From: a virus | DNA: 64,000 bases | IMG/VR virus record: IMGVR_UViG_3300030419_007131 | Location: 1 to 64,000 of that record | Reading direction: 5' to 3' (one strand) | Notes under the pieces: generated by a model | The model's input: only the letters and a program-made list of their open reading frames with translations | Told to the model about the DNA's origin: nothing | The model's database searches: none | Made by a program: the position numbers and the translations under genes | Shown: piece by piece, positions 6,374 to 58,140 of the stretch | Layout of the letters: each line of letters begins with the position of its first letter | How positions within the stretch are numbered: the stretch's first letter is position 1

Positions 6374-6709
6374 TTATTCGCGACGCGGACGACCCGCCTG
6401 GGCCGCCTGCTCATCGGGCGTAATTGGCGTGAACTCATCCTCGGCGGACTGGTACCAATATACCCCCCCTATCTCAAGTCCGCCAAGTTCATCAAGCAGT
6501 CCTTCCTCGCCACCCTCCAAGCGCGCTGCTGCAGCTAGCTCGGCGGCGCTCAAGGGCTCGAGGCGTCCTTCATCATTGAGTTTACTCCACAAAGCATTAA
6601 CTTTGTCTATCGCCGACTCGTAACCAACGTCATAGAGCCCCTCATTAAGGAACTTTCTCCAGTTCTCTGTGATTAGCTGGTGGTTTTTAAAACTTGAAAA
6701 CTTGCTCAT
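6374..6709 (-). CDS. Small protein with shared N-terminal tag (candidate packaged head protein)
   Basis: A 111-residue protein beginning MSKFSSFKNHQLITENWRKF then LNEG. The segment QLITENWRKF is a diverged copy of a tag also found at the starts of the proteins at 6761, 13880 and 54342. LNE followed by Gly fits the (I/L)-x-E cleavage rule of T4-type prohead proteases. Behind the tag the protein is Ala/Glu/Leu rich and acidic (SAAELAAAARLEGG, about 65-78). By analogy with the T4 capsid-targeting sequence, it may enter the prohead and be trimmed; this is inference. A TATAAATAG motif lies about 18 bp upstream (6727-6735). The body matches nothing I know. Confidence 0.6.
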   Translation of the reverse strand: MSKFSSFKNHQLITENWRKFLNEGLYDVGYESAIDKVNALWSKLNDEGRLEPLSAAELAAAARLEGGEEGLLDELGGLEIGGVYWYQSAEDEFTPITPDEQAAQAGRPRRE

Positions 6710-6726
6710 GGTATATCTCCGCGTAT

Positions 6727-6735
6727 TATAAATAG
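6727..6735 (-). promoter_or_regulatory. TATAAATAG motif (sense CTATTTATA), candidate late promoter
   Basis: 18 bp before the tagged gene starting at 6709. Sense context is GACTATTTATAATACG. Confidence 0.5.
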
Positions 6736-6760
6736 TCTAACCATAGTCTACCTATCCCAT

Positions 6761-7213
6761 TTATTCTTCTGCGTAACGCTGAAGCTCTTCGTCGTCTAGC
6801 CCTTGTAGTGATGCTACAAAGTCTGGTGTAACAAAGTTCATCGTGCACTCTGCAATTTCGTCAGCATTCGCACGGATAGCCGTCGCAATTGTTTTCTTCA
6901 TCAGCGACTCAATAATATTAGCATCGAAAGGAATATCAGGCACTACTCGATCAGCAAAATCTGCTGCATTGTCCTTTAAATACTGGGCCAATGTTTGCTC
7001 AGCTTCTTGCAAGAAACCCCGAGCCTTCCTTTTAACCATTGCTTGCAGGTCGTCGTCGCTCGCAAGGGCCGCGGTCCCCCCGGTAGCGATGGCGGCCGCA
7101 CCAGCGGCCGCACCTCCCAGTCGTCTCATGGCCGATCGGCGAGACATCTCTTCTTCAGTGAGCAGCTCTTGCTCTTTACTAAAGCGACGCCAGTCTTCCA
7201 TTATAAGTTTCAT
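6761..7213 (-). CDS. Tagged protein with Tat/Sec-like hydrophobic segment (candidate packaged head protein)
   Basis: 150 residues from the ATG at 7213; a GTG at 7216 is the alternative start. It opens with MKLIMEDWRRF, a clear copy of the shared tag, followed by QELLTEEE, a plausible L-x-E protease site. Next comes SRRSAMRRLGG, an Ala/Gly-rich hydrophobic run and ALASDD, which together resemble a Tat- or Sec-type export signal placed about 20-25 residues inside the protein. The rest is helical (LQEAEQTLAQYLKDNAADF). The order tag, cleavage site, export signal suggests a protein packaged in the head, trimmed, delivered with DNA and then sent to the membrane or periplasm; all of that is inference. 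A TATAAATAG motif lies 5 bp before the start. Confidence 0.6.
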   Translation of the reverse strand: MKLIMEDWRRFSKEQELLTEEEMSRRSAMRRLGGAAAGAAAIATGGTAALASDDDLQAMVKRKARGFLQEAEQTLAQYLKDNAADFADRVVPDIPFDANIIESLMKKTIATAIRANADEIAECTMNFVTPDFVASLQGLDDEELQRYAEE

Positions 7214-7217
7214 CACT

Positions 7218-7226
7218 TATAAATAG
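7218..7226 (-). promoter_or_regulatory. TATAAATAG motif, candidate late promoter
   Basis: 5 bp before the tagged gene starting at 7213; sense GACTATTTATAAGTG runs into the ATG. Confidence 0.5.
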
Positions 7227-7227
7227 T

Positions 7228-7506
7228 CTAACTATCCGACAAAATACCGATTACGTGGTTTTCCTTGATGACCGTGAAGGTCTCGCCGTTGTGCTCAATA
7301 TCGCGGAGCATGTGTGCTTCCACAACAAGTTGCAATCCGGTGCCCCAAAGGGTCCCCGATTCTCCCGAGCAATTGATTACCTCAACCACTGCGAATGGAC
7401 TCTCGACAGAGCGGTAGTCCTGGGGTAGCAAGATGCCACTCTCTTCAGTGTCTGTGTCCTCGACCGTCTTAACGACGAGGTAATTATTAACTGGTGATAA
7501 ATTCAT
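7228..7506 (-). CDS. GroES-like co-chaperonin (T4 gp31 analogue)
   Basis: At 92 residues this is the normal size of GroES. The start PVNNYLVVKTVEDTDTEESG matches the Cpn10 first strand and the base of the mobile loop; GILLPQDY is the loop exit; the end FTVIKENHVIGIL matches the C-terminal Cpn10 strands (compare VLIMSESDILAIV). Such proteins cap host GroEL; T4 gp31 does so to fold the major capsid protein gp23. A gp23-type capsid is encoded at 36697-38478, so the same job is likely. Divergence from bacterial GroES is strong, which is usual for phage versions. Confidence 0.75.
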   Translation of the reverse strand: MNLSPVNNYLVVKTVEDTDTEESGILLPQDYRSVESPFAVVEVINCSGESGTLWGTGLQLVVEAHMLRDIEHNGETFTVIKENHVIGILSDS

Positions 7507-7507
7507 T

Positions 7508-8539
7508 TCATAACTCCTGTATTAGTCCTGTGTTTGTCCACTCCTCTAGCCCCTCCGGTGTCCACAGAAGAGCACCATCGGGCGATACGTCAGCCAGCGA
7601 TATAATGGCCGCTGTTCCCAATGTCAGAATGGTTGATCGGATTTCGGGGTCGGTAAACGTCACGTTGGGATTCAAGCAATTAGCTTCACACAGTACATCC
7701 GTGGGACTTTCAAAATCACAATGGTCGGCACTCGTAACTTTAACAATCTGAGAGTCTCCCATCATCTGAAAGAGAGCGAGGCCATTGTTCTCCGCATTGC
7801 ATCCCGAAGGCTCTCCCATAAGGAAGAAGCCCGTAGTAACGTCAGAAGCATACTGCTGGCCGATGAAATCAGCAACTCCGGGGGCGTCCTCAGTATCCGT
7901 AGTATCCAGACCAAGTACGCCAGGAGAGTCGGCATCTTGCGAAGCAGCAATGATAGCTGCCAGGCCTCCTGCCGAGTGGCCTGCATACACCACTTCAGTG
8001 GCACCACGTGATTCTCCGAGTTCAACCATGTTCTGGCCATTCATTTCGTGGTCTACGCCCCATAAAATATTGTAATGACATAGGGTCGGAAGAAGCACTT
8101 CCACACCCCACGAAGCTAGATGGTCAGCCCATCCTGCCATGACTCCAGCACCACGGGCAAAGCCATGACCCAAGACCACAACGGGAGGGTCGGTAACCCC
8201 CTCTGGCACATAGGCGGTATACTCCATATTAGCGCAGTCACTTACGCTAGCTGTAGCTTCCTCTTCACTCACAACATGAGGGCCTCGTTGGCCGAAGTCT
8301 GTGAGCCCTACTGGCTCTTCCGGTTCCTCTGGCTCTTCGGGCTCCTCCTCAGGCTGTTCGGGGGGTTCTTCCTCCTCTACGGGTGCACTGGAGTCGTCGT
8401 CGTCTGACGGCGTTTCTTCGGTGACCTCAACCTCTTCCTCTTCTTCGGCGGGAGCTGGCCCCCCATACGTTGTAACCCGGTAACCACACCCGGTTACTGC
8501 AATTAAAGCCCCCAAAGGGACCACTAAACTAGTTTTCAT
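7508..8539 (-). CDS. Secreted lipoprotein alpha/beta-hydrolase (chlorophyllase/cutinase-like)
   Basis: 343 residues from the ATG at 8539, which has an AAGGAAA ribosome site and lies 11 bp after nrdJ. Residues 1-18 form a lipoprotein signal with lipobox ending VTGC (Cys18 lipidated). Residues 20-80 are a Glu/Pro/Asp linker including DDDDSS. The rest is an alpha/beta-hydrolase: VVVLGHGFARG (oxyanion region), GHSAGG with Ser near 186, LGLDTTD near 208 as probable acid, and ADHCDFES with His near 272. Several Cys suggest disulphides outside the cytoplasm. The fold hydrolyses esters or lipids. A phage gene for a membrane-anchored extracytoplasmic hydrolase is unusual; envelope remodelling, superinfection block or capture from the host are possible. 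The substrate cannot be told from sequence. Confidence 0.8.
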   Translation of the reverse strand: MKTSLVVPLGALIAVTGCGYRVTTYGGPAPAEEEEEVEVTEETPSDDDDSSAPVEEEEPPEQPEEEPEEPEEPEEPVGLTDFGQRGPHVVSEEEATASVSDCANMEYTAYVPEGVTDPPVVVLGHGFARGAGVMAGWADHLASWGVEVLLPTLCHYNILWGVDHEMNGQNMVELGESRGATEVVYAGHSAGGLAAIIAASQDADSPGVLGLDTTDTEDAPGVADFIGQQYASDVTTGFFLMGEPSGCNAENNGLALFQMMGDSQIVKVTSADHCDFESPTDVLCEANCLNPNVTFTDPEIRSTILTLGTAAIISLADVSPDGALLWTPEGLEEWTNTGLIQEL

Positions 8540-8550
8540 TTTTTTCCTTT

Positions 8551-10977
8551 CTATCCGCACTTGGCGAAGCCGCACACAGTGCAAGTTACACACCCTTCAA
8601 CATAAACGAGGCCTTCGACCCCACACTCAGTACAGGTTTTCTCCGTAGCCTGTTGGCCATCTGGAATATAATTTTTCAACACTCTTGCCACGCACTTGGC
8701 GAAACTAAACATGTCCGAGTCACGATCTTTTTGAAGTTGTTCCACAACATATTGTATATTTGCTCCATGACGCAACCCCAACGAGATCATCCGAGTAAAG
8801 GCGCTGTGATTGGGGTTATCAAAAGCTTTAACCAAGTCCTTTATAATGATTGTATCACCGTTGGTTCCCACTTGCAAGTCATAAATTGAATTCATAGATT
8901 TGCGTGGATGCTTCACTAAAATACCCTCAGCCTTGGCGCGGGGAATCTCAATCAAATTTGATAGACCCCCCATAACTTCATATGGCTTGCCGTCCATAAG
9001 GCCAACCATAATGACCCACCTCTCGCCTTGAATGGTGGTGTGATGAATGTTGCAAGCGAGTTCGATGGGCCGCTTGGGAGCCTTGTGTTGTGGGAAGTCT
9101 CCAGATGTGTCCCACTTATCCACCAGCACCCCTGTACGCGAACCATCCACGTAAACGGTAATGCCCTTAAGGCCCATCTTCCAGCCTTGCATGTAAAGCT
9201 CGCCCACCAGCGCGGGATCAGTACCCTTCGGCAGGTTGATGGTAGAGCTAATGCTGTGGTCAATGGACTGTTGGATTACCGACTGGAGAGCGACGCGCTT
9301 TGTCCAATCGATGCTATCAGCCTCTACAAAGAAAGCCGGTAGGGCTCCTGGATCCTTAAAGGGATGCCACTCATGCCACTGCTGGACGTTATGGTGAAAG
9401 ACTTCGTACTCTACCCAACGATCTCCGAGATCGTCCACAAAATCAGCCTCTAGCTGCTGCTCGTCGTGAGATAGCTTGCGGCGACGAGTGTAGGAGTTAC
9501 GAAATACCGGCTCAAGGCCCGAGGAAGTCTGTGACATAATAGAAACAGATCCGGTCGGCGCGTTTGTCAGAATTGAAATGTTGCGGCGTCCATGCTGGGC
9601 GATCAATTCCTTCAGTTTCTCAGGCAACCGTTGGATAAACTCGTTGTTTTCTTCGATGCTCCAGGCAAAGGCCGGAAATGGGCCACGTTCTTGAGCAAGA
9701 TAGACGCTCTCCTCGTAGGCAGCGTCCCGTAAAGTCCGATAGATTTTCTCTGTGATTACAAGGGCTTCGTCGCTATCATACGCCAGATTGAGGCACGCTA
9801 GCGCGTCGGCCAATCCGTGAGTTCCCAAACCAGTGCGGCGACCATTTGCGGCCGCATTATATAGCTTTGTCCATAGCGCCTTTTCATCATCGGAATCGGC
9901 CACACTCCGAATGTTTTCAAGCTTCTCTAGCTCCAGTTCCACCAAGTCGTCGGACAGACGCATTCCCACCGCTGCTACCTCACGCAACTTATTAAAGTCA
10001 AAGTCTGCATTTTTTTCAAAAGAATTTTTAACGAGGCTTTTTAAATTGAGCGATATTAGTCTGCATGAGTCATAGGCAGAGAGTGGGATTTCTCCGCAAG
10101 GATTCGTTGTCTTGGTTTCAAACTCTGGATACGCATGGGCTGGCAAATTCTTAGTAATATTGTCCCACATTAAAAGCCCAGGCTCTGCGGTCTTGGTGGC
10201 TGACTCAATGATAGAGTTCCATAGCTCCGTCGCATTTATCTCAGATGTATATGCAGGGGTTTCTGCCTCTACTGGGAACTGCAGCGTGAAAGCTTCTCCC
10301 TTTTCAACGGCCTCCATAAACTCATCCGTAATCTTCACGGAAACATTGGCTCCCGTAACCTTGGTGAGGTCGTGCTTCATCTTGACGAACTCAGCAATGT
10401 CAGGGTGACGGATATCCATGGAGATCATCAGCGCACCGCGTCTGCCATTCTGTCCAATCATCCTGCATACATAGGAATAGAAATCAGCAAAACTCCAAGC
10501 CCCAGTAGTAGTCCGAGCAGAGTTGTTAACGGGAGCACCCTCGGGACGCAGATCAGAAATATCAAGGCCCACGCCACAACGACGTTTAAACAAGTTAGCA
10601 AGGTCTTTGCCAGCGTCCATAATGGACGAAACACTATCTTGTGGATTGTCGACAACCACACAGTTAGATAAAGATACATTAAGATAATCATTTCCTATTC
10701 CCATCATTGGTGAGCCCTGGGGCACAACGTATTTGAAATTCTTAAGGAAGGAATAAATATCCTCCTCTGTCAAGTGATTGGACTTGCGCGTAAGAAACTT
10801 GTCTTCCATTCTCGCGAACTCTTTCGCCAAGCGCTTATGCATATCGTCGGGCGTCTTTTCGACAAAGTTACCCTTCCTGTCGCGCAAACAGTACTTGGTC
10901 ATAAAAACGTTTGTTGCTAATTCGTCACCACCAAAATATTCCAGAGTTGCCTCACGGACTTCACTTTCTTCAAACAT
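8551..10977 (-). CDS. nrdJ: Class II (adenosylcobalamin-dependent) ribonucleotide reductase
   Basis: 808 residues from the ATG at 10977, with GGAGG 7 bp ahead. It reduces ribonucleotides to deoxyribonucleotides for phage DNA. Visible motifs are SLSNCVVVD with the first redox Cys near 104, the active-site NPCGEIPL near 292, PTGSVS near 473 and the C-terminal zinc ribbon CTECG...GCVTCTVCGFAKC, typical of NrdJ, whose Cys re-reduce the active site. No NrdB-type radical subunit gene is nearby, consistent with B12 dependence. It therefore needs cobalamin from the host. It sits between the helicase and the lipoprotein hydrolase in one co-directional run; the helicase stop overlaps its start region. 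Confidence 0.95.
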   Translation of the reverse strand: MFEESEVREATLEYFGGDELATNVFMTKYCLRDRKGNFVEKTPDDMHKRLAKEFARMEDKFLTRKSNHLTEEDIYSFLKNFKYVVPQGSPMMGIGNDYLNVSLSNCVVVDNPQDSVSSIMDAGKDLANLFKRRCGVGLDISDLRPEGAPVNNSARTTTGAWSFADFYSYVCRMIGQNGRRGALMISMDIRHPDIAEFVKMKHDLTKVTGANVSVKITDEFMEAVEKGEAFTLQFPVEAETPAYTSEINATELWNSIIESATKTAEPGLLMWDNITKNLPAHAYPEFETKTTNPCGEIPLSAYDSCRLISLNLKSLVKNSFEKNADFDFNKLREVAAVGMRLSDDLVELELEKLENIRSVADSDDEKALWTKLYNAAANGRRTGLGTHGLADALACLNLAYDSDEALVITEKIYRTLRDAAYEESVYLAQERGPFPAFAWSIEENNEFIQRLPEKLKELIAQHGRRNISILTNAPTGSVSIMSQTSSGLEPVFRNSYTRRRKLSHDEQQLEADFVDDLGDRWVEYEVFHHNVQQWHEWHPFKDPGALPAFFVEADSIDWTKRVALQSVIQQSIDHSISSTINLPKGTDPALVGELYMQGWKMGLKGITVYVDGSRTGVLVDKWDTSGDFPQHKAPKRPIELACNIHHTTIQGERWVIMVGLMDGKPYEVMGGLSNLIEIPRAKAEGILVKHPRKSMNSIYDLQVGTNGDTIIIKDLVKAFDNPNHSAFTRMISLGLRHGANIQYVVEQLQKDRDSDMFSFAKCVARVLKNYIPDGQQATEKTCTECGVEGLVYVEGCVTCTVCGFAKCG

Positions 10978-10979
10978 CA

Positions 10980-12347
10980 CTAGCCTCCATTGTTTTTCTT
11001 AAACTTTTTATATTTCTCAACCAAATTTTCTTTTTGCTTCTTGGCGCTGACCTCGACAATTTCATCTTCCTCAGAAGGCTCTAATACCTTAATGCAAACA
11101 TTCGAGGTGTCCATGAACAAGGGGAAGACGAGTCCGTCGGGGCCGTTGCGGTTCTTGGCCACAAAAAGTCGCCCACCATTAGCAGTCTTGTCCTCGATTG
11201 TTCTGGAAATACTGAAAATAAAGTCGGCCACAAAGCACTTGTTAAACGCTTCCGAAATAGATTCCATCGTAATGACTTCTGCGTTTAGTCCAGACCGGTT
11301 CGTCTGAGATGCTGTCCACACGGGCGCCTCGTATTCTGCTGCGATGCCGCGCAGCTCTTCATAAATAGACTCCAGTTCGTTTCTCTTCTCTTTAAGATAA
11401 CGAACAGGGCGCAATAAATCTCCATAATCAATGATGATCATGTCCACATTAATATCGCGCATGCGAAGCTTTTCCAAGTGATTCCGTATAGTTTGGGTAC
11501 TGGCGGTCTTGGTGGGATACTCCTTGACGATCAGCTTGCCTTCAACTTCTAAAACTTCCTCATAAATCTTTTCTTTAAAAGATATGAGACTTTGCAACGG
11601 AATCTTCGTGAGACAGGAATCATACCGAGAGGCTACCACGGTGTCTTGCAATTCCAAAGTATAGTGAACCACAGTCTTTCCGGCGCGCAAGGCCTGAGTT
11701 CCCAAATGGACGAGAGCCATAGACTTCCCGGCACCAGTGGGGGCTATGACTACTCCCAACTCTTTTTGGCCTAGGCCTCCCTTGCATATGTCATCAATAA
11801 GGTCCCAGCCCGTAGTCATAGGGTTGCGAAAGCGAGGCTTAAAGCGCTCTTCAAAATCCCGCTTCCAATCGTACCCCTCTTCGTTGTCCATTCCCAGCTT
11901 AAGGGAATCATTGATCACTTGAGATATTTCATCGAACGATGACGACTGCAATAGGCCAATGGATTTCACCATGGCCGATTTTAGATTCTGCTTTTTGCAA
12001 AAATCAAGAGACGTATCTTTGATATATTCAACATCTGTCAGAGCACTGATTTGACTCCGAACATAAAACTCACGTACCTGCTTAACTGTCAATTCATTTT
12101 CGTTATCCAGCTCAGATCTCAATATCGTTTTCATGATATCGCGAGAGGGATGAACTCCATACTTTTTACGATAATCAAAAATCTTATTTAAAAAAAGCTT
12201 TAAGTAATTAAGCTCTAGAAAGTTTACATCAAGGACTTCCTCAATCTGATCTGCGAACGGGCGATCATCCAAGATCACCATGCACAACTTTTCCTGAAAT
12301 GATTTTCCATACTTGGAAAAGTTGACAGGCTCTCCGTTTAATTTCAT
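10980..12347 (-). CDS. DnaB/gp41-type replicative DNA helicase
   Basis: 455 residues from the ATG at 12347, chosen because AAGGGAA lies just upstream; an in-frame ATG at 12365 is possible. The N-terminal part is helical as in DnaB primase-interacting domains. The RecA-like motor has Walker A APTGAGKS (near 201), MIIIDYGDLL as Walker B/H2 and WTASQTNRSG as H3, then the DnaB-like FSISRTIEDK and RLFVAKNRNGPDG. The C-terminus is Lys-rich. The family unwinds DNA 5' to 3' at the fork and would work with the DnaE polymerase here. A strong sigma70-like promoter (12367-12395) lies between it and the nuclease gene. Confidence 0.92.
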   Translation of the reverse strand: MKLNGEPVNFSKYGKSFQEKLCMVILDDRPFADQIEEVLDVNFLELNYLKLFLNKIFDYRKKYGVHPSRDIMKTILRSELDNENELTVKQVREFYVRSQISALTDVEYIKDTSLDFCKKQNLKSAMVKSIGLLQSSSFDEISQVINDSLKLGMDNEEGYDWKRDFEERFKPRFRNPMTTGWDLIDDICKGGLGQKELGVVIAPTGAGKSMALVHLGTQALRAGKTVVHYTLELQDTVVASRYDSCLTKIPLQSLISFKEKIYEEVLEVEGKLIVKEYPTKTASTQTIRNHLEKLRMRDINVDMIIIDYGDLLRPVRYLKEKRNELESIYEELRGIAAEYEAPVWTASQTNRSGLNAEVITMESISEAFNKCFVADFIFSISRTIEDKTANGGRLFVAKNRNGPDGLVFPLFMDTSNVCIKVLEPSEEDEIVEVSAKKQKENLVEKYKKFKKNNGG

Positions 12348-12366
12348 AGTTTCCCTTATTGTCATT

Positions 12367-12395
12367 ATAATACTATTGTTGCAACGCTTTGTCAA
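12367..12395 (-). promoter_or_regulatory. Sigma70-like promoter for the helicase gene
   Basis: In sense: TTGACA, 17 bp, TATTAT; about 20 bp before the helicase ATG at 12347, which has its own AAGGGAA. Confidence 0.65.
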
Positions 12396-13353
12396 GCACA
12401 ATCCGATTCATTGTGGCATGCAGATCGTCCCAGTTAAACACTCCAAAACCATCCTGATTCATCATCCGAATAACCTCGGTTTTATTATAGTCATATTCAA
12501 AATTTTCCAAGGCATAGTGCACTTTATCGCGACACTGCAAAGATAGCGCAGGAGCATAAAGCTGCATCAGTTTGTAGTTCTCTATAATTACATCTCTGTG
12601 GTCCAAAACGTTCGTGAAAAACTTAGCTTTGGACTCCGTTTGCAAACAGAAATCAAAAATCTCCTGCAAAGTCACATCCTTATCTTCTCTAAGAAATTTT
12701 AAGTTTTTTGAAATACTTTTTAAGCCAGCTCGTGGGACGCCCTTAAGGTTGTCTGAGGGGTCTCCTGCGATGGCGCGTGCCATGGCGAAGTTTCGGGGAT
12801 GGATATCAAAATCCTCCACTATATTCAACTTGGTGTGCACTTTCTTTTGAATGGGTCGAAACAAAACCGTTTCATTATCGCATAGTTGGATGAAATCCTT
12901 GTCGCTAGAGACGATGACCTTCTCCCAGCCCCTGAAATGATCCAGTTGGGTGGCGTAAGCGATGACGTCGTCGGCTTCCACCTCGTCAAAACGGAGTTGA
13001 ATCACTGGCAACTCATTCAAGTATTCCATCAGACGCAATTGCTGCCACGCCATGTTGGCTTGTTGTTGTTCCTGGGTCAAGTCGGTCTGTCGATTGACGC
13101 GAATAGGCTTGCGACCTTCTTTATAGTTCTTGTTCTGCTCTCGCCTCTTGCGACTCCCACCAGGACCGTCCCAGACAATCATCACAGTGTCTGGCTTAAT
13201 GTCACGACAAAGCTTTTGCAAGATGCCCAGGAAGCCTTTTAAACCACCGATGGGCTGTCCGTGAGTAGACAGGCTTGGGTTGACGATAAACGCCCTGAAA
13301 TAGGCGTTGAGGGCGTCAACGATCATTACTCTTTTCATGCTGCTGTCCACCAT
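12373..13353 (-). CDS. 5'-3' exonuclease (Pol I N-domain / FEN family, T4 RNase H-like)
   Basis: 326 residues from the ATG at 13353, which has GGAGG 8 bp ahead; an upstream in-frame extension overlaps the repair gene and lacks support. Motifs are MIVDALNAYFRAF (metal-binding Asp), IVWDGPGGSRKRREQNKNYK, EVEADDVIAYAT, VIVSSDKDFIQL, and the helix-hairpin-helix region IAGDPSDNLKGVPRAGLKS. These proteins remove RNA primers and flaps. With the separate short family-A polymerase at 18902 this makes a split Pol I. The gene overlaps the glycosylase-like gene by 19 bp. Confidence 0.92.
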   Translation of the reverse strand: MVDSSMKRVMIVDALNAYFRAFIVNPSLSTHGQPIGGLKGFLGILQKLCRDIKPDTVMIVWDGPGGSRKRREQNKNYKEGRKPIRVNRQTDLTQEQQQANMAWQQLRLMEYLNELPVIQLRFDEVEADDVIAYATQLDHFRGWEKVIVSSDKDFIQLCDNETVLFRPIQKKVHTKLNIVEDFDIHPRNFAMARAIAGDPSDNLKGVPRAGLKSISKNLKFLREDKDVTLQEIFDFCLQTESKAKFFTNVLDHRDVIIENYKLMQLYAPALSLQCRDKVHYALENFEYDYNKTEVIRMMNQDGFGVFNWDDLHATMNRIVLDKALQQ

Positions 13354-13799
13354 TGTGGCACCTCCGACTTCCATGTAGCAAATTTTGCCTTCTCGCCATG
13401 GTAATAGGCACGATAGGCAGTCACAGCACAATCGTTTTTGTATTGTGGTGGCATCGCCTGCGCAAACGGTAGCAAGCCTGACTCTGGAAACTCTAATGAA
13501 AGACGCGAGCACCACTCAATGATGGTTTGGCTCTTGTGCGTCTTGCCATAGCGCCTAGTATACTCGGCACTCATGGCCAGGGCATGACTGATCAACCAGT
13601 CCCAGTTCTCTTGAGACTTACCTGCCCAGAGAGTGCAAGGATGCTTAGGATGGGTGCGTCGATACGGTGCATCGTACCCGTGGTTGTGCGCTACGGTGCA
13701 CAGCATCTGAGCGCTTTCTAAAATCATTTTAACAACGTGCTTGTCGCAGAGCATCTGCGCAGCAACGTCGGGTTGTTCGTGTAAAACGAATATGTTCAT
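13335..13799 (-). CDS. Pyrimidine-dimer DNA glycosylase-like phage protein
   Basis: 154 residues. The start MNIFVLHEQPDVAAQMLCDK and following HVVKMILESAQMLC, THPKHPCTLWAGKSQENW and YTRRYGKTHKS match a widespread phage family generally annotated as DenV-like pyrimidine-dimer excision proteins. T4 DenV incises UV-damaged DNA with an N-terminal catalytic Thr; here residue 2 is Asn, so activity is not certain. A textbook sigma70 promoter (13830-13858) lies upstream and should drive this gene and the nuclease behind it. Confidence 0.6.
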   Translation of the reverse strand: MNIFVLHEQPDVAAQMLCDKHVVKMILESAQMLCTVAHNHGYDAPYRRTHPKHPCTLWAGKSQENWDWLISHALAMSAEYTRRYGKTHKSQTIIEWCSRLSLEFPESGLLPFAQAMPPQYKNDCAVTAYRAYYHGEKAKFATWKSEVPQWWTAA

Positions 13800-13818
13800 G
13801 TGTATCCCCTAACGTATG

Positions 13819-13851
13819 AAGCTCCTATGAGTATACCTCACAGGAGCTTCG
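13819..13851 (-). repeat. Perfect 9-bp inverted repeat inside a promoter
   Basis: GAAGCTCCT / AGGAGCTTC around 15 bp, overlapping the spacer and -10 of the 13830-13858 promoter. It could be an operator or an RNA hairpin. Confidence 0.6.
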
Positions 13852-13858
13852 GTGTCAA
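13830..13858 (-). promoter_or_regulatory. Consensus sigma70 promoter overlapping a hairpin
   Basis: In sense: TTGACA, 17 bp, TATACT, 31 bp before the ATG at 13799. A 9-bp perfect inverted repeat (13819-13851) covers the spacer and -10. Confidence 0.75.
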
Positions 13859-13879
13859 GGGTTGTTTTCTATTCTTTAT

Positions 13880-14155
13880 CTAATACTTAGCTAACTGGGC
13901 CGCGGCATTCATTAGGCCTTTAAGTGTTGAGTAAACTTTGCCGACTTCGTCCTTCAGGGCCCCATTCTCGCCATGGTCTGTGAGTGCGTCCGAATCAAGC
14001 ATCGACCCGCGGAGTTGCTTCAGGCCGACAGCAAGTTCCTTGTAAAAAGCGCGGGTCGCTTCGTTCTCCCATTTGTGGGGCACAAATTCCTCATTAACAG
14101 CATCTTCTTGAGAAAACTTTTCCCAGTTTTCCATTATAAGCTTCATATCAGACAT
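13880..14155 (-). CDS. Small protein with shared N-terminal tag (candidate packaged head protein)
   Basis: A 91-residue protein starting MSDMKLIMENWEKFSQED, the cleanest example of the shared tag (MKLIMENWEKF). The downstream VNEEF resembles the acidic context of prohead protease sites, though it lacks a clear (I/L)-x-E. The body is helical (ATRAFYKELAVGLKQL, near 33-48; VYSTLKGLMNAAAQLAKY at the end) and has no recognised domain. AGGAGACC precedes the ATG, and a TAATAAATAG motif (14178-14187) lies about 25 bp upstream in the gap after recA, giving it its own late-type signal inside the replication region. Confidence 0.6.
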   Translation of the reverse strand: MSDMKLIMENWEKFSQEDAVNEEFVPHKWENEATRAFYKELAVGLKQLRGSMLDSDALTDHGENGALKDEVGKVYSTLKGLMNAAAQLAKY

Positions 14156-36696: not shown

Positions 36697-38478
36697 CTAA
36701 ACTAGGCTCTTAATAACAACCAGTCCATACATATCAGGACGCACCATCTTCTTGGCATATCGGGTCATGACGCCCTTACGAGGTACGAAGTCCTCGACGC
36801 CGAAGATAGTAGGCGTGGTCTGCAGCGGCACATAAGGTGCGTACACATAGCCACTCTCAAGGAAGCTACTTCCACGTCGGCCAACAAGGACCAAGTTACG
36901 CGGGAAGTAAGGATCGACGATAACGTCGAACTTCTTCGAAAGCGAACCAACCTTAACAGCACCCGCGTCGCCGCGGTCGCTATCAGCAGTCACATTGGCA
37001 CGGAAGCCAGCGGTGAACTCAAGGATGTTGGCAACTTCAGGTCCGCAGACGACGAAGTTAGCAGCACCACGGAGAGTCTTCCGATGGATCTGTGCGGAGA
37101 CGTCATTGATAGTCTCAATGAGGGTCTCATACCACTCACTCACGTTACCGGTGAAGTCCGGAGGCGCAGTTCCAGTACCAATCACAACACCCGTCTCACG
37201 ATTCAAGAAATCGCCAGGGGAGCGCGACCAGTAGCGGACGCCTGCGGTAGCACCCACAACGAGATCCTCAAGGATCTCTTGATCAATTTCAAGAGCAACC
37301 TGCTCAGACAGAATCTGAGTAAGCTCGACTTCAGCGTCAAGGTTGTGGTAGGCGTTAAGATCTTGTCCTAACTCCGGGGTCCACTTGGCCTTGAGCTTCT
37401 TGGTGATCGCCGTGACGGCCACCGAGTCGACCTTGATGTCGATCTCAGGAATGTAGGCATTGCCTTCCAGTCCCCACTGCTGTGCGGGAAGAACAGCACC
37501 GATAGACGGTGACGTTCCACCAAAGTTATCAACGATCGGGAACGAAGCCGTGAGGCCTGAAGCCCACTCGGCATCAAGCTGAGCAACTGTAACAGTTCCA
37601 GTATCACCACCAACCAACACGAGCAGAACACGAGCAGAATCGGTCGGATCTTCGCGCTGGAGACGACGTGCCTGAATACCATTGGTAGGCTCGACACCGG
37701 CTGCGGTGCGCACCTTAATGGCAACAGCATCCTCTTGGTTCCATGCGCCGCCCGCGCTGTCGGCGAGGTCGGTCTTAAGAACGGAAACCACACTAAAGCT
37801 AGAACCAGATGCAAGATCCGGGTCAAACTCAAGCAGTCCGCGAAGCTGATAAGCAGCAGCGGTCTGGTTGCCGGGAGGCACGGAGAAGTCGCAAAGACCA
37901 CCCACGCCGATAGAACCCGAAGCAATTTGCTCTAAGGCAGCCGGGGAAGGACCAACACCGGCAGAACCCGTCGGAGACGAGTAACCGTTGTTGAGTGCAT
38001 ACGGACCACGCTCAGCGTTCTGCCCCGTGAGGAGAACACCGCCGGTGATCTGGCTACCAACTCGTCCACCACCATAGAGGGAGGAGCCACGAGGATAACC
38101 CAAGCGGAACGTATCCGCGGTCTGGCCATCAGCGATCTCGTTAGAGACAGTGAAGTCCAGGAAGAAGATGAGGCCCGAGGGCAAACTCATCGGCTGAACG
38201 CTAACGAGATCGTTGGCGATCAAAGAGCCGAATACACGGCGAACGAGGGGGAATGCGACAGCCGCAAAGCCCTCCACATCACCAGCAGCCATGCTACTGG
38301 ACTCACGGAGAAGCTCACGTGCCTGGTTCTCAAGCAGTCGGGCCATTCCATTCCGAAGATCATCGCTTCCAAGTCCTTCGAGAAGTCCGGTCTGTTCCCA
38401 CTTTCCAATGAGAGCAGTACCTTCCTTGCCGAGGTCACGGTTAACAATACCTTCAGTTAATTTCTGAACGATAGACAT
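36697..38478 (-). CDS. Major capsid protein (T4 gp23-like)
   Basis: 593 residues (T4 gp23 521). LTEGIVNRDLGKEGTALIGK and MARLLENQARELLRESS parallel the gp23 N-terminal propeptide; FPLVRRVFGSLIANDLVSVQ then PMSLPSG matches MVRRAIPNLIAFDICGVQPM in gp23. C-terminal marks are FVVCGPEVANILEF and YAKKMVRPDMYGLVVIKSLV. The propeptide is probably removed by the gp21-like protease; LLRE before Ser-Ser is one possible site. AGGAGG precedes the ATG, and the scaffold gene is directly upstream, as in T4. Its folding probably uses the GroES-like protein at 7228. Confidence 0.92.
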   Translation of the reverse strand: MSIVQKLTEGIVNRDLGKEGTALIGKWEQTGLLEGLGSDDLRNGMARLLENQARELLRESSSMAAGDVEGFAAVAFPLVRRVFGSLIANDLVSVQPMSLPSGLIFFLDFTVSNEIADGQTADTFRLGYPRGSSLYGGGRVGSQITGGVLLTGQNAERGPYALNNGYSSPTGSAGVGPSPAALEQIASGSIGVGGLCDFSVPPGNQTAAAYQLRGLLEFDPDLASGSSFSVVSVLKTDLADSAGGAWNQEDAVAIKVRTAAGVEPTNGIQARRLQREDPTDSARVLLVLVGGDTGTVTVAQLDAEWASGLTASFPIVDNFGGTSPSIGAVLPAQQWGLEGNAYIPEIDIKVDSVAVTAITKKLKAKWTPELGQDLNAYHNLDAEVELTQILSEQVALEIDQEILEDLVVGATAGVRYWSRSPGDFLNRETGVVIGTGTAPPDFTGNVSEWYETLIETINDVSAQIHRKTLRGAANFVVCGPEVANILEFTAGFRANVTADSDRGDAGAVKVGSLSKKFDVIVDPYFPRNLVLVGRRGSSFLESGYVYAPYVPLQTTPTIFGVEDFVPRKGVMTRYAKKMVRPDMYGLVVIKSLV

Positions 38479-52019: not shown

Positions 52020-52241
52020 TTATCTAAACAATTTGTTATCCTTTTTTCTTTGAAGCTTTTGCGCTTCGCGTTTTGCTTTCTCTCTTTTCATTTTCCTGCG
52101 CACCGAGGGCTTAATAAAATGATCCGTGCGCGCTCTATAAGTTTCAATAACTTTAGCTTTTTTGCACTTTTTAATGAATCGCCTTATCAGTCTTTCTGAC
52201 GTTTCGCCTCGTCGCAAATCTACTCTGATGTTTGTGGCCAC
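52020..52241 (-). CDS. rpsU: Ribosomal protein bS21 homologue
   Basis: 73 residues with a GTG start (52239-52241) and AAGGAAAGTAGG ahead. IRVDLRRGETSERLIRRFIK then KCKKAKVIETYR, HFIKPSVRRKMKREKAKREA is bS21 along its whole length; the cellular protein is about 71 residues. bS21 binds the 30S subunit near the anti-Shine-Dalgarno sequence of 16S rRNA. Phage copies of bS21 are known from aquatic viruses and can replace the host protein. Its place inside the late virion operon suggests it biases late translation; this is inference. Confidence 0.93.
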   Translation of the reverse strand: MATNIRVDLRRGETSERLIRRFIKKCKKAKVIETYRARTDHFIKPSVRRKMKREKAKREAQKLQRKKDNKLFR

Positions 52242-52248
52242 ACTGCAC

Positions 52249-52692
52249 CTACTTTCCTTCTTTTACGTCGCTCATGTGAGCATTCCAGTTTCTACCAACT
52301 GACCCAAATAGCTTGCCTATATCAACGCCCGGATCAGTGGGTGCTTGACCCGCAAGGGGAGCTGCCATTTGTTGTGGTGATGTTTCGGATGCCGCGGGCA
52401 TCGTTCCCTCAAAAAGGTCGACACCATTATAGGCGCTGGTTCCGATTGCTGACATAAGCTTGTTTTTGTGCTCTTGTAATTTCGTTTTTTGTTGGTTGTT
52501 AAACGCATTCTCAGTCATACGCGTGGCCACTGGGTCCGTCGCGACCGGGGCGGCGGTTTCGGTAACCGGATCAGCTATTCCACGCGCCACCTCTCTAACT
52601 ATCCCCGACAAAACCCCATCTTCAAGAATGGCCTCTTTGACACACTCTTTTATAAGGGGCTTCAGGATATTCTTTAGTTCTGCTTTTTTCAT
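52249..52692 (-). CDS. Conserved phage protein, probable prohead core or internal protein
   Basis: 147 residues. It begins MKKAELKNILKPLIKECVKE as a long amphipathic helix, then a Pro/Ala/Thr stretch, KTKLQEHKNKLMSAIGTSAY and GVDLFEGTMPA, ending GVDIGKLFGSVGRNWNAHMS. Function unknown. It lies immediately after the prohead protease gene and 7 bp before bS21. The helix-rich, low-complexity make-up suits a core component. Confidence 0.5.
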   Translation of the reverse strand: MKKAELKNILKPLIKECVKEAILEDGVLSGIVREVARGIADPVTETAAPVATDPVATRMTENAFNNQQKTKLQEHKNKLMSAIGTSAYNGVDLFEGTMPAASETSPQQMAAPLAGQAPTDPGVDIGKLFGSVGRNWNAHMSDVKEGK

Positions 52693-52704: not shown

Positions 52705-53301
52705 TTATTCTAAAATACTATCGATCAAAGATATGATTCGATTATTTTTAAGTACTTCCTTATCTCTCAGCTTGCCTTCCTGCAGGGCCATAAATGCATT
52801 TGGCGTCGAAGGTTCTGACACAATGTCAAAACAAATTAACTGAAAATCATCTTCAACGATTGTCTTACCCATTTGCTCACGAACCGACCCCATTCCTCGC
52901 GACGAGATGCCAGTCTTAACTCCACACTCCACCAAAGATCGTAGAATCTGTCCCGAAGGGGTATTAAGAACCTTAATCTTTCCCATCACTGCGGGGCCTT
53001 CCATCCATACCTCGGTAACCATATGTGACACATTGGCAAGATTGATAATCGAAGAGTCCGGGTGGTCTAGTTCTCCCAAAGCACGGTTGTCTTCAACCAT
53101 TGCTGCGTACTTCGTAACTTCGCGTTCCATAATAGCATGCGGATAGATACGACCATTGCCGTTCTGAACGTCCGACTCTTGTAACTTGCCCGTAAGCATC
53201 ATGCCGCCCTCTTTTACAAATTTCTTTTCGGCTTCCGTCAGCAGGTCCTGACAGACACCACCTTCGCATAGTTCATAAAATTCTCGTAGTAGCTGTGCCA
53301 T
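52705..53301 (-). CDS. Prohead protease (T4 gp21-like)
   Basis: 198 residues (T4 gp21 212). GRIYPHAIMEREVTKYA, ALGELDHPDSSIINLANVSH (catalytic His), VIEVWMEG-like strand (VTEVWMEGPAVMGKIKVLN), and TGISSRGMGSVRE (catalytic Ser) align in order with gp21 (RLYPKRILEKAV, ALGELNHP, GVSSRGLGSL). It matures the prohead by cutting scaffold and capsid proteins after (I/L)-x-E. Its own N-terminus has LLTEAE, a likely self-cleavage site, and the same LLTE appears in the tagged proteins at 6761 and 54342. Confidence 0.92.
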   Translation of the reverse strand: MAQLLREFYELCEGGVCQDLLTEAEKKFVKEGGMMLTGKLQESDVQNGNGRIYPHAIMEREVTKYAAMVEDNRALGELDHPDSSIINLANVSHMVTEVWMEGPAVMGKIKVLNTPSGQILRSLVECGVKTGISSRGMGSVREQMGKTIVEDDFQLICFDIVSEPSTPNAFMALQEGKLRDKEVLKNNRIISLIDSILE

Positions 53302-53304
53302 TGT

Positions 53305-53910
53305 TTATTCCTCGAAGCGGCTTACAGGAACCATCTCTGCCAGATCATTTAGCGTGGTCTGTATATTCTCGACCGAATTATTTATCTTGCGAAGTTCGGT
53401 CCAGATATCCACCCCCGCATCGATGTTGCTCGGTATAGCTCGGACAGGCTTTGAGGCACGGGCGAGGCTCTCGTTTATTGCGTCCACGGATGACTGGATC
53501 AATTCTATAGAGTCCGTCATGCCGCGTACCAAGTGTGGAGATGCTGCATCAAGTTTATGATCCAAATACGGAGTATCTAAATAGGGTGTGTGCCTCATCG
53601 GATGGTCGGGGTGCCCTTTCAGCGGTTTGCCGCGGCGGGCCTCTTCCAACGGGACTTCGTCTTCCGGGTCGGGGCCCATGGCCTGGTCAATAGCATCGCG
53701 TGCGGCAGCCATACCTGCGCCAAAAGCTTCTTCAGGTGAAAGTTGGCTGATGTCGTCAACGTGCACTTCCATACCGGGAGCACTAATATCAATTGCTTCG
53801 TCCCCTTCTTCGGCGTGAGGGCAGCCCTCCTCCAGCTCTTCGTCGTGATCTACTGTCTCGTGCAAGAAGTACCTGGGGTCTATTCTTTTTACATTTTTTC
53901 TGCGTGCCAT
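53305..53910 (-). CDS. Acidic head-region protein of unknown function (201 aa)
   Basis: The start at 53910 (MARRKNVKRIDPRYFLHETV) is supported by AAGGGAA. A basic first 12 residues precede an acidic body with several Glu/Asp runs (EDEVPLEEARRGKPLKG) and a helical C-terminus (ELRKINNSVENIQTTLNDLA). The RIDPRYFLxET start is one I associate with aquatic phage head-region proteins, without known function. It sits 3 bp before the protease gene. A hairpin (53936-53955) lies just upstream. Confidence 0.5.
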   Translation of the reverse strand: MARRKNVKRIDPRYFLHETVDHDEELEEGCPHAEEGDEAIDISAPGMEVHVDDISQLSPEEAFGAGMAAARDAIDQAMGPDPEDEVPLEEARRGKPLKGHPDHPMRHTPYLDTPYLDHKLDAASPHLVRGMTDSIELIQSSVDAINESLARASKPVRAIPSNIDAGVDIWTELRKINNSVENIQTTLNDLAEMVPVSRFEE

Positions 53911-53935
53911 TGTTTTAATTCCCTTAAAGTTTAAC

Positions 53936-53955
53936 GTGGGGCCTTTCGGCCCCAC
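53936..53955 (-). terminator. Hairpin after the membrane protein gene
   Basis: GTGGGGC / GCCCCAC, 6-nt loop. The T-run after it is poor, so partial termination or RNA processing is possible. Confidence 0.45.
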
Positions 53956-54341: not shown

Positions 54342-54896
54342 TTATTTAAAGTAACCGGTGCTTCCGAGGATCATGTGGTAATTTAGATCGACTGCGGTTG
54401 GGCTCGCAGGCTCCAAGTTTTTTGGCACCTCGGCATCTGCGGGATAAGCTGTTACGTACCCGGTATCGGGAAAAACAAAAAATACATAATCTGTTTTCCA
54501 AGATTTGGAAGAATCCGTGCCTTCTTTTTTATCCTTTTTTTGAATCCTAGACCCAAGGATGCCCCAGTTAGAAACCCCATTGGCATCCGTGAGACTTTCA
54601 CTTTCTTTGGCTTGATCAACTTGCACCGGAGTATTGTCTACCGGCGCATCTGATGCGTGAGCCGGCGGTGCCATGGCGCCCGTCGCAACACTTAAAGCAA
54701 CAGCAAGGGGAAGTGCTTTTTGTGTGACTTGCTTGCGAACCCAGGCCGCCTTTTTTGGCCCAACGAAGTTAACAATTCGATCCCACAGCTCGCCTTCGGT
54801 AATCTGTCCGGACTCATAAAGCAGACAAATATCCTGTGCTTCGGTTAAAAGTTGGTACTTTCTCCAGCCTTCCATCATCAGCTTCATCTCGGACAC
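54342..54896 (-). CDS. Tagged protein with internal Sec-like signal (candidate packaged and exported protein)
   Basis: 184 residues; GTG start at 54896 overlapping the previous stop, or ATG at 54887. It opens MSEMKLMMEGWRKYQLLTEA, the shared tag with an LLTE/A site and a second QITE/G about 20 residues on. Residues about 60-95 then read like a signal peptide: basic (KKAAWVRKQVTQK), hydrophobic (ALPLAVALSVATGAM) and AHAS before DAPVD. The C-terminal part has KTDYVFFVFPDTGYVTAYPA and no known domain. It lies among head genes, unlike the other three tagged genes. Packaging, cleavage, delivery and export are inferred. Confidence 0.6.
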   Translation of the reverse strand: MSEMKLMMEGWRKYQLLTEAQDICLLYESGQITEGELWDRIVNFVGPKKAAWVRKQVTQKALPLAVALSVATGAMAPPAHASDAPVDNTPVQVDQAKESESLTDANGVSNWGILGSRIQKKDKKEGTDSSKSWKTDYVFFVFPDTGYVTAYPADAEVPKNLEPASPTAVDLNYHMILGSTGYFK

Positions 54897-55402: not shown

Positions 55403-56207
55403 TGATCGCAACCTCTTGGGCCAACTCTTGAGTCTTCAGTACCTTGTTGAGATCTTCGTCAGAAAAATCCCTTTTCCGAAATTCTTCCAAGTATTCCAGG
55501 ACACTATTCAGCTTTTCTTCTAAAAGCGGGGCGTCGGATGTCTCTGCGGCGGCGCCAATCTTTCCCTTTAGGCGCGCCAATTCCTCATTAAGATAAGCGC
55601 GCAGTTCAAGACCCTCGTCAGCAAAGCTTGTAATATAACGATTGAGAAGGTCCTTTTGTTCCTGCAAAAGCGCTTCATACTTATTATTAAACTTCTTGAT
55701 AAACGAGTTATAAGTGATATTGTCTATGGGCGCCATGTGGAGTGTTTCGTTTATTGATTGTTTTGAACTCATGCCATCGACAATAGATTGTTCGAATAAA
55801 ACCTTTTTCTTTACTGGGGTGTTCTTGCTGAAGATAGCATTCACCGAGGCAAGACTCTTAAAGTTGGGAACAAAATTAGCCCAGACCGTCTTGCCTAAGT
55901 TCTTATTAATAACTGCGATGGCCTCAGATTGTGCCGCAAAAATATTGTCATGGTCTAGCCGTTGATGGCTAGCTTTCGTCTCTTGTAGTAGTCTTTCTGC
56001 CACCGGCGCATGCAAACGCTTTGTTTCTAGCAACACGCGATAAAGTTGTAGCTCTTCAGCCAACACACTTCCTTTATTAAAAAACTGTTTGATAATGGCT
56101 ACAACTTTTTGTTTCCGAGATGAATCCTTTTTGATGATAGCTTGTGTCAGCTCGTGGGTAAGGGTTTCATAAATAAAAGCTGTGTTTCTTTTTTTGTTAT
56201 GCTTCAT
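55395..56207 (-). CDS. Conserved helical head-region protein (270 aa)
   Basis: The start at 56207 (MKHNKKRNTAFIYETLTHEL) fits the 11-bp overlap with the portal stop; an upstream extension inside portal is unlikely. It is mostly helical: VVAIIKQFFNKGSVLAEELQ, RLLQETKASHQRLDHDNIFA and LLQEQKDLLNRYITSFAD. A protein with this start follows the portal gene in many aquatic T4-like phages; its role is not known, and a core or portal-initiation role is inferred from place. Confidence 0.55.
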   Translation of the reverse strand: MKHNKKRNTAFIYETLTHELTQAIIKKDSSRKQKVVAIIKQFFNKGSVLAEELQLYRVLLETKRLHAPVAERLLQETKASHQRLDHDNIFAAQSEAIAVINKNLGKTVWANFVPNFKSLASVNAIFSKNTPVKKKVLFEQSIVDGMSSKQSINETLHMAPIDNITYNSFIKKFNNKYEALLQEQKDLLNRYITSFADEGLELRAYLNEELARLKGKIGAAAETSDAPLLEEKLNSVLEYLEEFRKRDFSDEDLNKVLKTQELAQEVAIND

Positions 56208-58140
56208 CTTTGTCTGCCTCTTTTTTCTCCATTTGTTCAACTAAGCGTCGCACTTTTGTAGTGTTTTCAAACAAATTGGCCTCGTCTTTATTATAAATAG
56301 ATTCCTTATATTGTTTCGTGCCAAACGTTACATCCAAAATCTTGCCGGGCGGAGTGGTAGCGCGGCCGCGACCACGAGGTATCTCTGGGAGAGCCGTGCT
56401 GGTAATATGACGACGCGTTCCGCCTAGGTCTCGATTGTCGACGGCCACCGGCGTATAAGTGCCATGATCATAAACATGCTCTCCTTCTTCACTTAAGTGA
56501 CCATCCTCCCGTCGTCCCGGAGTGGTGAGTAAAGGAGACTCTTCGCCGCCGAGGTCTTCGCCTCCAAGATCTTCACCGCCGAGGTCTCCCCCAAGGCCGC
56601 CAAGTTCTTCGGCACCAAGGTCGCCCCCAAGGTCGCCCCCAAGGTCGTCGCCCAAGCCGCCACCAAGTTCTTCAGCAGCTGCGTCTTCAGCAAGGGCTTC
56701 AAGTTCTTGTTGGTATTTACGATCATAAAACGTTTCGCGTTGGTTGCGCAAGAACTCAGAATCAGAAAGGCCCAAGATATTGGAGGCCACCCAACGCTTG
56801 CTGAATGTCCCCTCCGGAACAGCTGTTGCCGTATCAAACTTGGTACGCATGTATTCTAGCTGCTGCAACTCCGCCAAACGAGAGGGATTGTTGAGTGTAA
56901 TCTTAAACGACAAAAGATCCTCACCGCGATACCCCAAGGTATACAAATGAACAATCGCCATCTTCTCTAGCTCTGAAACTACCGACCTTTGCAGGCGGTG
57001 GATGGTGCGCGCAAAGCGAATATCTTTCTGGGCTAACGTTGTCTTATCTTCGTCGCCACCCTCCAAATTGGTAAGATAAGCTTGCGGAATCTTAATTGCA
57101 GCGAAGAGTTTGTCGCGCAGATATTTAACATCGTCAATATCATTAAGACTGCTAGCGCCCTGGAGGGAGCTAATGTCAGAACCAACGCCGCCACGAATAG
57201 GAATAAAGTAGTCCTCTTCCAGCGAAAGAGGGTTATATCGCAGGTCGACTCGACCAGTTGTGGCATCAACCAACTGATTACGCTTCATCTCGGTTTTGAC
57301 CTTTTCCATATACTGAGGAATTTCTTGAGGCGGGATATTCCCCACATCGATCTTAAAGATCCTGCGCTCGGGTGCACGAACGACACGGTAGGCAATCATC
57401 GCATCCTCTAAAAGAACCAGCTGGCGCCAAATGCGACGCGCTGGATCAAGAACCGAAGTGCCGTATGGGCTATACCTGTCATTACCAAGAATGCGGAAGT
57501 GGGCAACCTGCCAGTTTTCAAAGGTCATGCCGGCACCGTTCCACTGATACTGAACGTAGTTGGGATTGGTAGCGTCTTGACCCTCCAGCCTTTCAACTTC
57601 GTTATTAGGCATTCCGATCACTGACGTAATACCAAGATGCTCGTCGATGTCGAGATATAAAAAGAAGTCTCCATACTTGCACATGGAACGAGCCCAGCCA
57701 AAAGCGTTAAACTCAATATTCAAAGCATCGTAAAAGAGCGCTTCGAGAATTGACTTGATCTCGTGATTCATGCAGTCAATATTTAGAAGACGATCATACT
57801 CATTCGAGGTCGTCATTTCGTCGGCATAAATATCCAATGCTGAGGCAATCTCTGGCATGTATTCCATTTGCTCAAAATCGGTATACCGCTCGGCGCGGTT
57901 CTGGTTTCGAAACGCAGCAGAAGTATACAAGTTATAGTTCTGCGACATATTGTTGTCGGCGCGCTTAAACTCCTGGCCGCTTAGGGACCTGAATCTGTAT
58001 CGATATTTATCTAAATTGCCGCGGCGCTCTTGACGTGCGACTTGCGTCCGATAGTTTACAATCGGACCTGACAGCATTCGAGTTAATCGTTTGAATAACG
58101 GTGAAGCTGGGTTTCTTGTGTTTCTCTCGTTCTTGGCCAT
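56197..58140 (-). CDS. Portal protein (T4 gp20-like)
   Basis: 647 residues (T4 gp20 524). EYMPEIASALDIYADEMTTS, FNAFGWARSMCKYGDFFLYL, VAHFRILGNDRYSPYGTSVL, RAPERRIFKIDVGNIP and KIPQAYLTNLEGGDEDKTTL are gp20 family segments in order. An inserted low-complexity tract of GGDLGGEDLGG type (about 490-540) and a Pro/Arg-rich region make up the extra length. It forms the dodecameric vertex for DNA entry and tail attachment. It follows the terminase gene by 3 bp. Confidence 0.93.
   Translation of the reverse strand: MAKNERNTRNPASPLFKRLTRMLSGPIVNYRTQVARQERRGNLDKYRYRFRSLSGQEFKRADNNMSQNYNLYTSAAFRNQNRAERYTDFEQMEYMPEIASALDIYADEMTTSNEYDRLLNIDCMNHEIKSILEALFYDALNIEFNAFGWARSMCKYGDFFLYLDIDEHLGITSVIGMPNNEVERLEGQDATNPNYVQYQWNGAGMTFENWQVAHFRILGNDRYSPYGTSVLDPARRIWRQLVLLEDAMIAYRVVRAPERRIFKIDVGNIPPQEIPQYMEKVKTEMKRNQLVDATTGRVDLRYNPLSLEEDYFIPIRGGVGSDISSLQGASSLNDIDDVKYLRDKLFAAIKIPQAYLTNLEGGDEDKTTLAQKDIRFARTIHRLQRSVVSELEKMAIVHLYTLGYRGEDLLSFKITLNNPSRLAELQQLEYMRTKFDTATAVPEGTFSKRWVASNILGLSDSEFLRNQRETFYDRKYQQELEALAEDAAAEELGGGLGDDLGGDLGGDLGAEELGGLGGDLGGEDLGGEDLGGEESPLLTTPGRREDGHLSEEGEHVYDHGTYTPVAVDNRDLGGTRRHITSTALPEIPRGRGRATTPPGKILDVTFGTKQYKESIYNKDEANLFENTTKVRRLVEQMEKKEADKDEA
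56540..56690 (-). repeat. Low-complexity tract in the portal gene
   Basis: Short direct repeats built on GGTCGCCCCCAA-like units (plus strand) encode a Gly/Asp/Leu/Glu-rich tail in the portal protein; likely length-variable. Confidence 0.7.

Follow-up and report, generated by a model that had tools for sequence, protein, structure and literature searches.

Four small proteins of an uncultured marine phage share an N-terminal label that is very probably a capsid-targeting sequence (CTS) of the T4 kind, carried by predicted injected effectors. They are encoded in a stretch of 64,000 nucleotides (the window), positions 1 to 64,000 of IMG/VR record IMGVR_UViG_3300030419_007131. The record, from the uncultured marine viruses of bacteria (phages), has 165,065 bases and 187 predicted open reading frames (ORFs) and belongs to the T4 superfamily. 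All four genes lie on the minus strand and begin with a sequence resembling MKLIMENWRKF (label A), after which the bodies diverge. The capsid-targeting reading, proposed in a preliminary description of the window, is supported by a label that is kept while bodies differ, by a protease encoded in the window, by a cleavage motif at a preferred distance and by the residue spacing of T4. The four proteins and their parts are as follows.

6374..6709, minus: label-A protein, 111 amino acids, starts MSKFSSFKNHQLITENWRKFLNE; label from residue 11
6641..6679, minus: label A and cleavage motif of the 6374 protein, QLITENWRKFLNE
6761..7216, minus: label-A protein, 151 amino acids, with a segment like a twin-arginine translocation (TAT) signal behind the label; starts MMKLIMEDWRRFSKEQELLTE
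7154..7213, minus: label A up to the delayed site of the 6761 protein, MKLIMEDWRRFSKEQELLTE
7061..7144, minus: putative TAT-like export signal SRRSAMRRLGG...TAALA, 3 residues past the site
13880..14155, minus: label-A protein, 91 amino acids, no assigned body family; starts MSDMKLIMENWEKFSQEDAVNE
14090..14146, minus: label A to MKLIMENWEKFSQEDAVNE in the 13880 protein; V-type site, the weakest of the four
54342..54896, minus: label-A protein, 184 amino acids, between portal and protease; starts MSEMKLMMEGWRKYQLLTE
54840..54887, minus: label A to MKLMMEGWRKYQLLTE in the 54342 protein
54654..54716, minus: putative Sec-like segment ALPLAVALSVATGAMAPPAHA with AxA end, 54342 protein

The preliminary description had listed these four common starts, and all are present with diverging bodies; the genes are, however, on the minus strand, and the second extends over 6761-7216. 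Reading the same positions on the plus strand gave stops throughout and was rejected. An (I/L)xE sequence follows the label in three of the four, as had been stated, the fourth (13880) having VNE. For the body of the 6374 protein, neither PHROG nor Pfam gave a match at E values up to 1.

Label A in the record and in related phages

Four proteins proved to be an undercount for the record. Within the first 30 residues a strict label pattern is matched by six of the 187 ORFs, against 0.065 expected from residue shuffles (maximum 1 in 200), and a broad form by eight, against 0.365 expected by shuffling. Four of the eight adjoin one another at 138110-142011.

Relatives were gathered by a protease scan, a terminase scan and four degenerate DNA patterns of the label, and with the record's own pieces form a collection of at least 507 stretches (4.77 Mb). 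Counts from the two protein scans and from three of the four DNA-pattern scans are lower bounds. The DNA patterns, which supplied most loci, constrain label residues 1-8, and the strict expression demands [FYWL] at residue 11; a less biased version therefore uses residues 1-8 only. Strict matches number at least 488, and 475 of the 488 lie no more than 20 residues from the first start codon of the ORF. Ten of the other 13 are 21-38 residues in, which an early in-frame start codon could explain; a further two are at 62 and 96, and one is C-terminal. The last belongs to a reading frame about 1,145 residues long (L196) that ends MKLFFEGWRKFIKE; for T4 Alt, a review describes processing of the C-terminus by gp21 as well (PMC9026906).

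After removal of duplicates there are at least 403 labelled proteins, a count that takes in those of the record and treats proteins as distinct by their first 50 residues. Without the label, their bodies fall at a blastp threshold of 1e-4 into at least 171 clusters, 108 of them singletons, the largest holding 62 of the 403 proteins. Alignments of 68 and of 104 representatives show the label conserved and hardly anything beyond it. The comparison of tag with body that the preliminary description had suggested thus came out as it expected, with the label kept and the bodies different.

Up to six distinct label-A genes occur within a single locus. Six loci of about 6-14 kb (L174, L310, L296, L400, L455 and L444) carry four to six distinct labelled genes apiece and may be effector islands. 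Among 84,980 bacterial and archaeal genomes a longer label pattern gave one match, in CP070664.1 (L517), a metagenome-assembled genome labelled candidate division WOR-3. Its labelled gene has a GNAT-like body, and an 808-residue ORF with an A-like start lies near a GroEL-like ORF (by eye); it looks like phage DNA that was either integrated into a bacterial bin or assembled together with it.

Conservation as protein

Label A is conserved at the protein level. Leu3 is encoded by all six leucine codons, and Asn7 and Glu14 each by both of theirs; within the label, mean pairwise identity is 0.556 at third codon positions, 0.688 at first and 0.814 at second. The DNA upstream is A-rich and free of motifs, and no motif was found downstream either. 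Module exchange is evident at the 5' ends of these genes, which would suit a DNA or RNA element (a recombination or translation signal) that reads as protein by chance. The synonymous codon variation, with flanks that share A-richness and no motif, speaks against such an element, and we give it almost no credence.

Cleavage motif and prohead protease

Pfam and PHROG profile matches show that the window encodes a T4-type head cluster, including the gp21-like protease that the preliminary description had attributed to this phage. The protein at 38512-39606 is a scaffold candidate.

58144..59730, minus: terminase large subunit, T4 type (profile matches, Pfam and PHROG)
56197..58140, minus: portal, gp20 type (Pfam E 1.1e-78)
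52705..53301, minus: gp21-type prohead protease, Peptidase_S77 (Pfam E 1.7e-31; PHROG 207 E 7.2e-55)
36697..38478, minus: major capsid protein, gp23 type (Pfam Gp23 E 1.1e-69)
38302..38310, minus: LRE close to where the gp23 propeptide region ends (T4 position matched by eye)

T4 gp21 cleaves after L/I-x-E, according to a review (PMC9026906; see also PMC3012670), and a motif of this kind stands at a preferred distance behind label A. Counting from the label tryptophan (W), 72.5% of the 171 clusters have [ILV]xE with its E at W+6, against a background of 1.3% per position at W+40..W+129. Within W+5..W+20, [ILV]xE is present in 158 of the 171 clusters and [IL]xE in 142. When the label is defined by residues 1-8 only, residue 11 is aromatic in 159 of 177 clusters, residue 12 is I, L or V in 149 and residue 14 is E in 138, the three jointly in 116. 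With this definition, [IL]xE places its E at residue 13-28 in 146 of the 177 clusters; in equal windows deeper in the proteins the fraction is 0.139 (171 of them long enough). In the capsid proteins, L[RK]E is retained at about the end of the gp23 propeptide (by eye). All 21 distinct segments have it; they come from 27 capsid ORFs, among them that of the window. This agrees with an (I/L)xE protease. PF03420 (S77) was detected in 16 of 24 large label-bearing records, including all 12 of those of at least 116 kb.

The spacing W8-xx-[FY]11-[LIV]12-x-E14 equals that of Y4-F7-I8-E10 in T4, where Y4 and F7 serve targeting and I8 and E10 cleavage. For the T4 IPIII label, MKTYQEFIAE, the same review assigns residues 4 and 7 to targeting and 8 and 10 to processing (PMC9026906). 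This correspondence, spotted after most of the statistics had been made, is in our judgement the strongest single argument for a CTS. A second recurring stretch behind the label, approximately (I/L)(T/S)(E/K)(E/G)xLxxxW, was seen by eye in the window's 54342 protein, L271, L082 and others; it may represent a longer propeptide with repeated cleavage sites.

The position of the 54342 gene in the head cluster is a variable slot. A labelled gene fills it in 29 of 69 protease loci (those of the 80 with at least 3 kb upstream), by a pattern that overlooks at least one labelled gene (L002, MKLIMESWRRH).

An amphipathic address to some other place, such as the host membrane or a replication or tail complex, with LxE merely a part of the helix, would also give a conserved start. 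The label is indeed modelled as a helix (residues 3-16 in one model and 2-14 in another, at low-to-middling confidence), and some carriers have hydrophobic segments. Such an address would not account for the equality with the T4 spacing, nor for the filling of the head-cluster slot by labelled genes; moreover, where the immediate site with E14 is missing, many proteins have [ILV]xE a few residues later, as does T4 IPI. We therefore regard it as improbable beside capsid targeting.

Further label classes

The preliminary description spoke of one common address label, which is too narrow; there are at least three classes. Label B (MKITKxxLKQIIKEEL) was found in 221 non-redundant proteins, whose bodies form 157 clusters. 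Residue 14 is Glu in 207 of the 221, although the search pattern left it free; the same pattern has 41 additional matches away from ORF starts. The record holds five copies. Label C (MARRKNVKRIDPRYFLHE) was found in 55 proteins, all 55 with F[LM]xE, and in up to three proteins per locus; a label-C gene directly precedes the protease in the window and in other loci.

53305..53955, minus: label-C protein immediately ahead of the protease (Pfam matches weak, all below cut-off)
53857..53910, minus: label C of the 53305 protein, MARRKNVKRIDPRYFLHE
52249..52692, minus: protein with a label-B-like start, MKKAELKNILKPLIKE (by eye; missed by the label-B pattern)

Ten label-B bodies have a label-A homologue, five of these resting on stretches of 26-82 residues, and among homologous bodies some bear label A, some label B and some neither of them.

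Predicted cargo

Pfam scans covered 68 cluster representatives and 104 of 109 new ones (five short fragments excluded), and at most 40 of the 172 have a match at 1e-3. The families are NUDIX, zeta toxin, S-AdoMet lyase, DNA C5 methylase, GNAT, HAD, guanylate kinase, RNase_T exonuclease, pentapeptide repeats, M23 peptidase, Amidase_2, PAP2, GDSL lipase, DUF192 and tRNA-ligase phosphodiesterase, each seen once or twice among the 68 or the 104 scanned. One hand-picked protein matches NT5C, and a protein kinase match is below the family cut-off. Matches below cut-off or near 1e-3 (SidM_N, R_equi_Vir, GIT1_C, IQCJ-SCHIP1 and similar) were treated as chance.

S-adenosylmethionine lyases have an anti-restriction role, for which no supporting paper was found in the literature searched. 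A search starting from this function, in 50 of the 80 loci (48 records), gave matches in 8 of the 48 label-bearing records, five of them over the family cut-off. Four of the five (L513-L516) have a W[KR][KN][FY] label by eye, of which the script pattern flagged L514 only, and the fifth (L518) has a label-B-like start. Two of the three matches below cut-off begin MKNILENWGSFLTE and one is label-B-like.

The record's cargo protein of 476 residues (139947-141377) gave a weak structure model, with a mean predicted local distance difference test (pLDDT) score of 61.7. A sequence search against solved structures found no convincing match to it, and a fold search none at E 0.001 (best E 1.9e-3, template modelling score about 0.2). 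Nearly all of the 50 fold matches listed are kinase-like phosphotransferases, and we describe the protein as kinase-like mainly on its motifs. Its iterated profile drifted onto the label, so the E-values of that profile are no evidence of kinship.

Duplication and divergence of one gene family, with the N-terminus as a remnant of descent, would be in keeping with the single cluster of 62 among 403 proteins and with the paralogue of the 54342 protein in the same genome (139303-139980). However, the bodies span distinct enzyme families (NUDIX, S-adenosylmethionine lyase, zeta toxin, DNA methylase, GNAT, M23 and others), and homologous bodies occur with label A, label B or neither. Common descent of the bodies was rejected on their distinct Pfam families, and its probability is in our view negligible.

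The labelled proteins could instead be accessory components of the prohead core or of the structure of the virion, label and cleavage being unchanged but the proteins not injected as effectors. The 54342 gene and the label-C gene sit between portal and protease, where T4 has its core genes 67 and 68, and the largest cargo cluster is modelled as all-helical (mean pLDDT 68, middling confidence). On the other side, several carriers match enzyme families and seven of the record's eight label-A ORFs lie outside the head cluster. The slot lacks a labelled gene in 40 of the 69 loci by pattern (L002, one of the 40, has one by eye), so it is probably dispensable. As a general account of the labelled proteins we find a structural role unlikely.

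Export-like signals behind the label

In some label carriers the cleavage site is followed by a segment resembling an export signal. In the protein L410:7284, label A and several [LV]xE sites are followed by SRRSFLKKAATAAGAVAASQMIPSVARA and an HEFEH motif. Residues 63-93 of this protein have a match to 2pq4_B, a precursor peptide of periplasmic nitrate reductase (E 0.0079). A similar order of label, site and export-like segment is seen in the 6761 and 54342 proteins of the window and in L176, L251, L262, L263 and L210. Under a strict definition, 15 of 283 labelled proteins have an export-signal segment within residues 12-75, and of unlabelled proteins 25 of 2958 have one in that region (Fisher p 5e-7, from rows that are not independent); the comparison with deeper parts of the labelled proteins is only 15 against 6 of 283 (p 0.07). 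With a looser filter there was no clear excess (labelled 23 of 147, against 203 of 1826). Nested export signals are thus suggestive, not established. It is a tentative idea, more doubtful than probable, that addressing has two stages, in which the protease would remove the head label and so uncover a Sec or TAT signal directing the protein to the envelope of the new host.

Proposed mechanism and its weak points

During head assembly, label A would dock its protein into the prohead core, probably as a helix with W8 and F/Y11 as binding residues. The gp21-type protease would then cut after [I/L]xE, usually at E14 and sometimes further on, and the label would leave. The freed bodies would remain in the head with the DNA, enter the next host alongside it and may act there at once as anti-restriction and host-takeover effectors.

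Several observations weigh against this account. The 13880 protein has VNE in place of (I/L)xE, and 13 of the 171 clusters have no [ILV]xE inside W+5..W+20. The protease was undetected in 8 of the 24 label-bearing records. Two of these contigs break off within the portal gene or at its edge, which would place the protease past the contig end, and the other six have no portal match either; that contig ends or missing head genes explain the eight misses is plausible, not proven. Because these records lack the portal or end at it, they do not amount to genomes that keep the label while lacking a gp21-type protease, the finding named in the preliminary description as one that would speak against it. 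With at most 40 of 172 representatives matched in Pfam, the effector role is drawn from a minority of the bodies; clustering at blastp 1e-4 overcounts independent families; and the S-adenosylmethionine lyase search was run in records picked for bearing labels. Finally, some label carriers beside gp21 could be core structure and not cargo.

If the account is right, the label reads out, from sequence alone, the proteins that a large group of uncultured marine phages would inject. The 171 or more body clusters, most without a known family, would form a testable list of what phages deliver along with their DNA. An S-adenosylmethionine lyase carried in the head could plausibly counter methyl-dependent restriction before phage genes are read. 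The interchangeable labels A and B and the export-like signals past the site suggest a richer sorting than in T4.

Other features of the window

A small ribosomal protein resembling bS21 (by eye) is encoded at 52020-52241 (minus), two genes away from that of the prohead protease; in Microcystis phage Mel-JY01, an RpsU is annotated at a comparable position. The adjoining ORFs 46752-51011 and 51026-51541 (minus) have very similar starts (MANPKNKW...) and are likely a partial tandem duplication.

Comparison with known systems

The literature searched, which left most subscription journals outside, gave no recognisable earlier description of the label letters, or of CTS in cyanophages and other marine phages, in metagenomes or in effectors, and no paper on the structural proteins of Flavobacterium phage immuto. 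By terminase, immuto and Mel-JY01 are the nearest named relatives (44-45% identity). In the 50 kb of immuto examined, repeated starts are seen by eye, MENFDLKKFLVENKLT (A-like) and MKKSQLRQIIKEAL (B-like), and a prohead protease is annotated, as here, but the label letters differ; its predicted labelled proteins begin MENFDLKKFLVE and MKKSQLRQIIKE. No repeated label was seen in a 50-kb stretch of Mel-JY01. A generic scan for h-x-x-h-[ILV]-x-E, whose position limits miss the T4 label, matched 10 of 47 ORFs in immuto and 3 of 44 in Mel-JY01, with 0-2 matches each in stretches of T4, P-SSM2 and HTVC008M (85 kb of T4, 50 kb of each of the others).

In the giant phage SPN3US, ejection proteins likewise have N-terminal propeptides removed by a prohead protease (PMC5694885), but these are mostly far longer, several exceeding 100 residues; the label here ends 14-20 residues in.

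T4 offers the closest parallel (letters taken from AF158101). That its internal proteins and Alt carry MKTYQEFIAE, as the preliminary description stated, is true of IPII and IPIII; IPI starts MKTFKEFTSTTTPVSTITE and Alt MELITELFDE. The CTS of IPI-III are, as here, short N-terminal labels on differing bodies, with aromatics three apart and then [I/L]xE; the T4 label is cut by gp21, and IPI has a delayed site like that of the 6761 protein. Label A differs in its letters and in a site four residues later, and only the [FY][IL]xE core is in common, which is too short to prove common descent. A review already proposes that the CTS allows T4-like phages to take in various proteins (PMC9026906). The present record has six to eight label-A genes, at least three label classes and a wider range of cargo families, and some carriers have segments resembling export signals past the site. 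The labelled cargo of T4 is a handful of proteins. New in comparison are the other letters, the several classes of label and a much larger set of predicted cargo.

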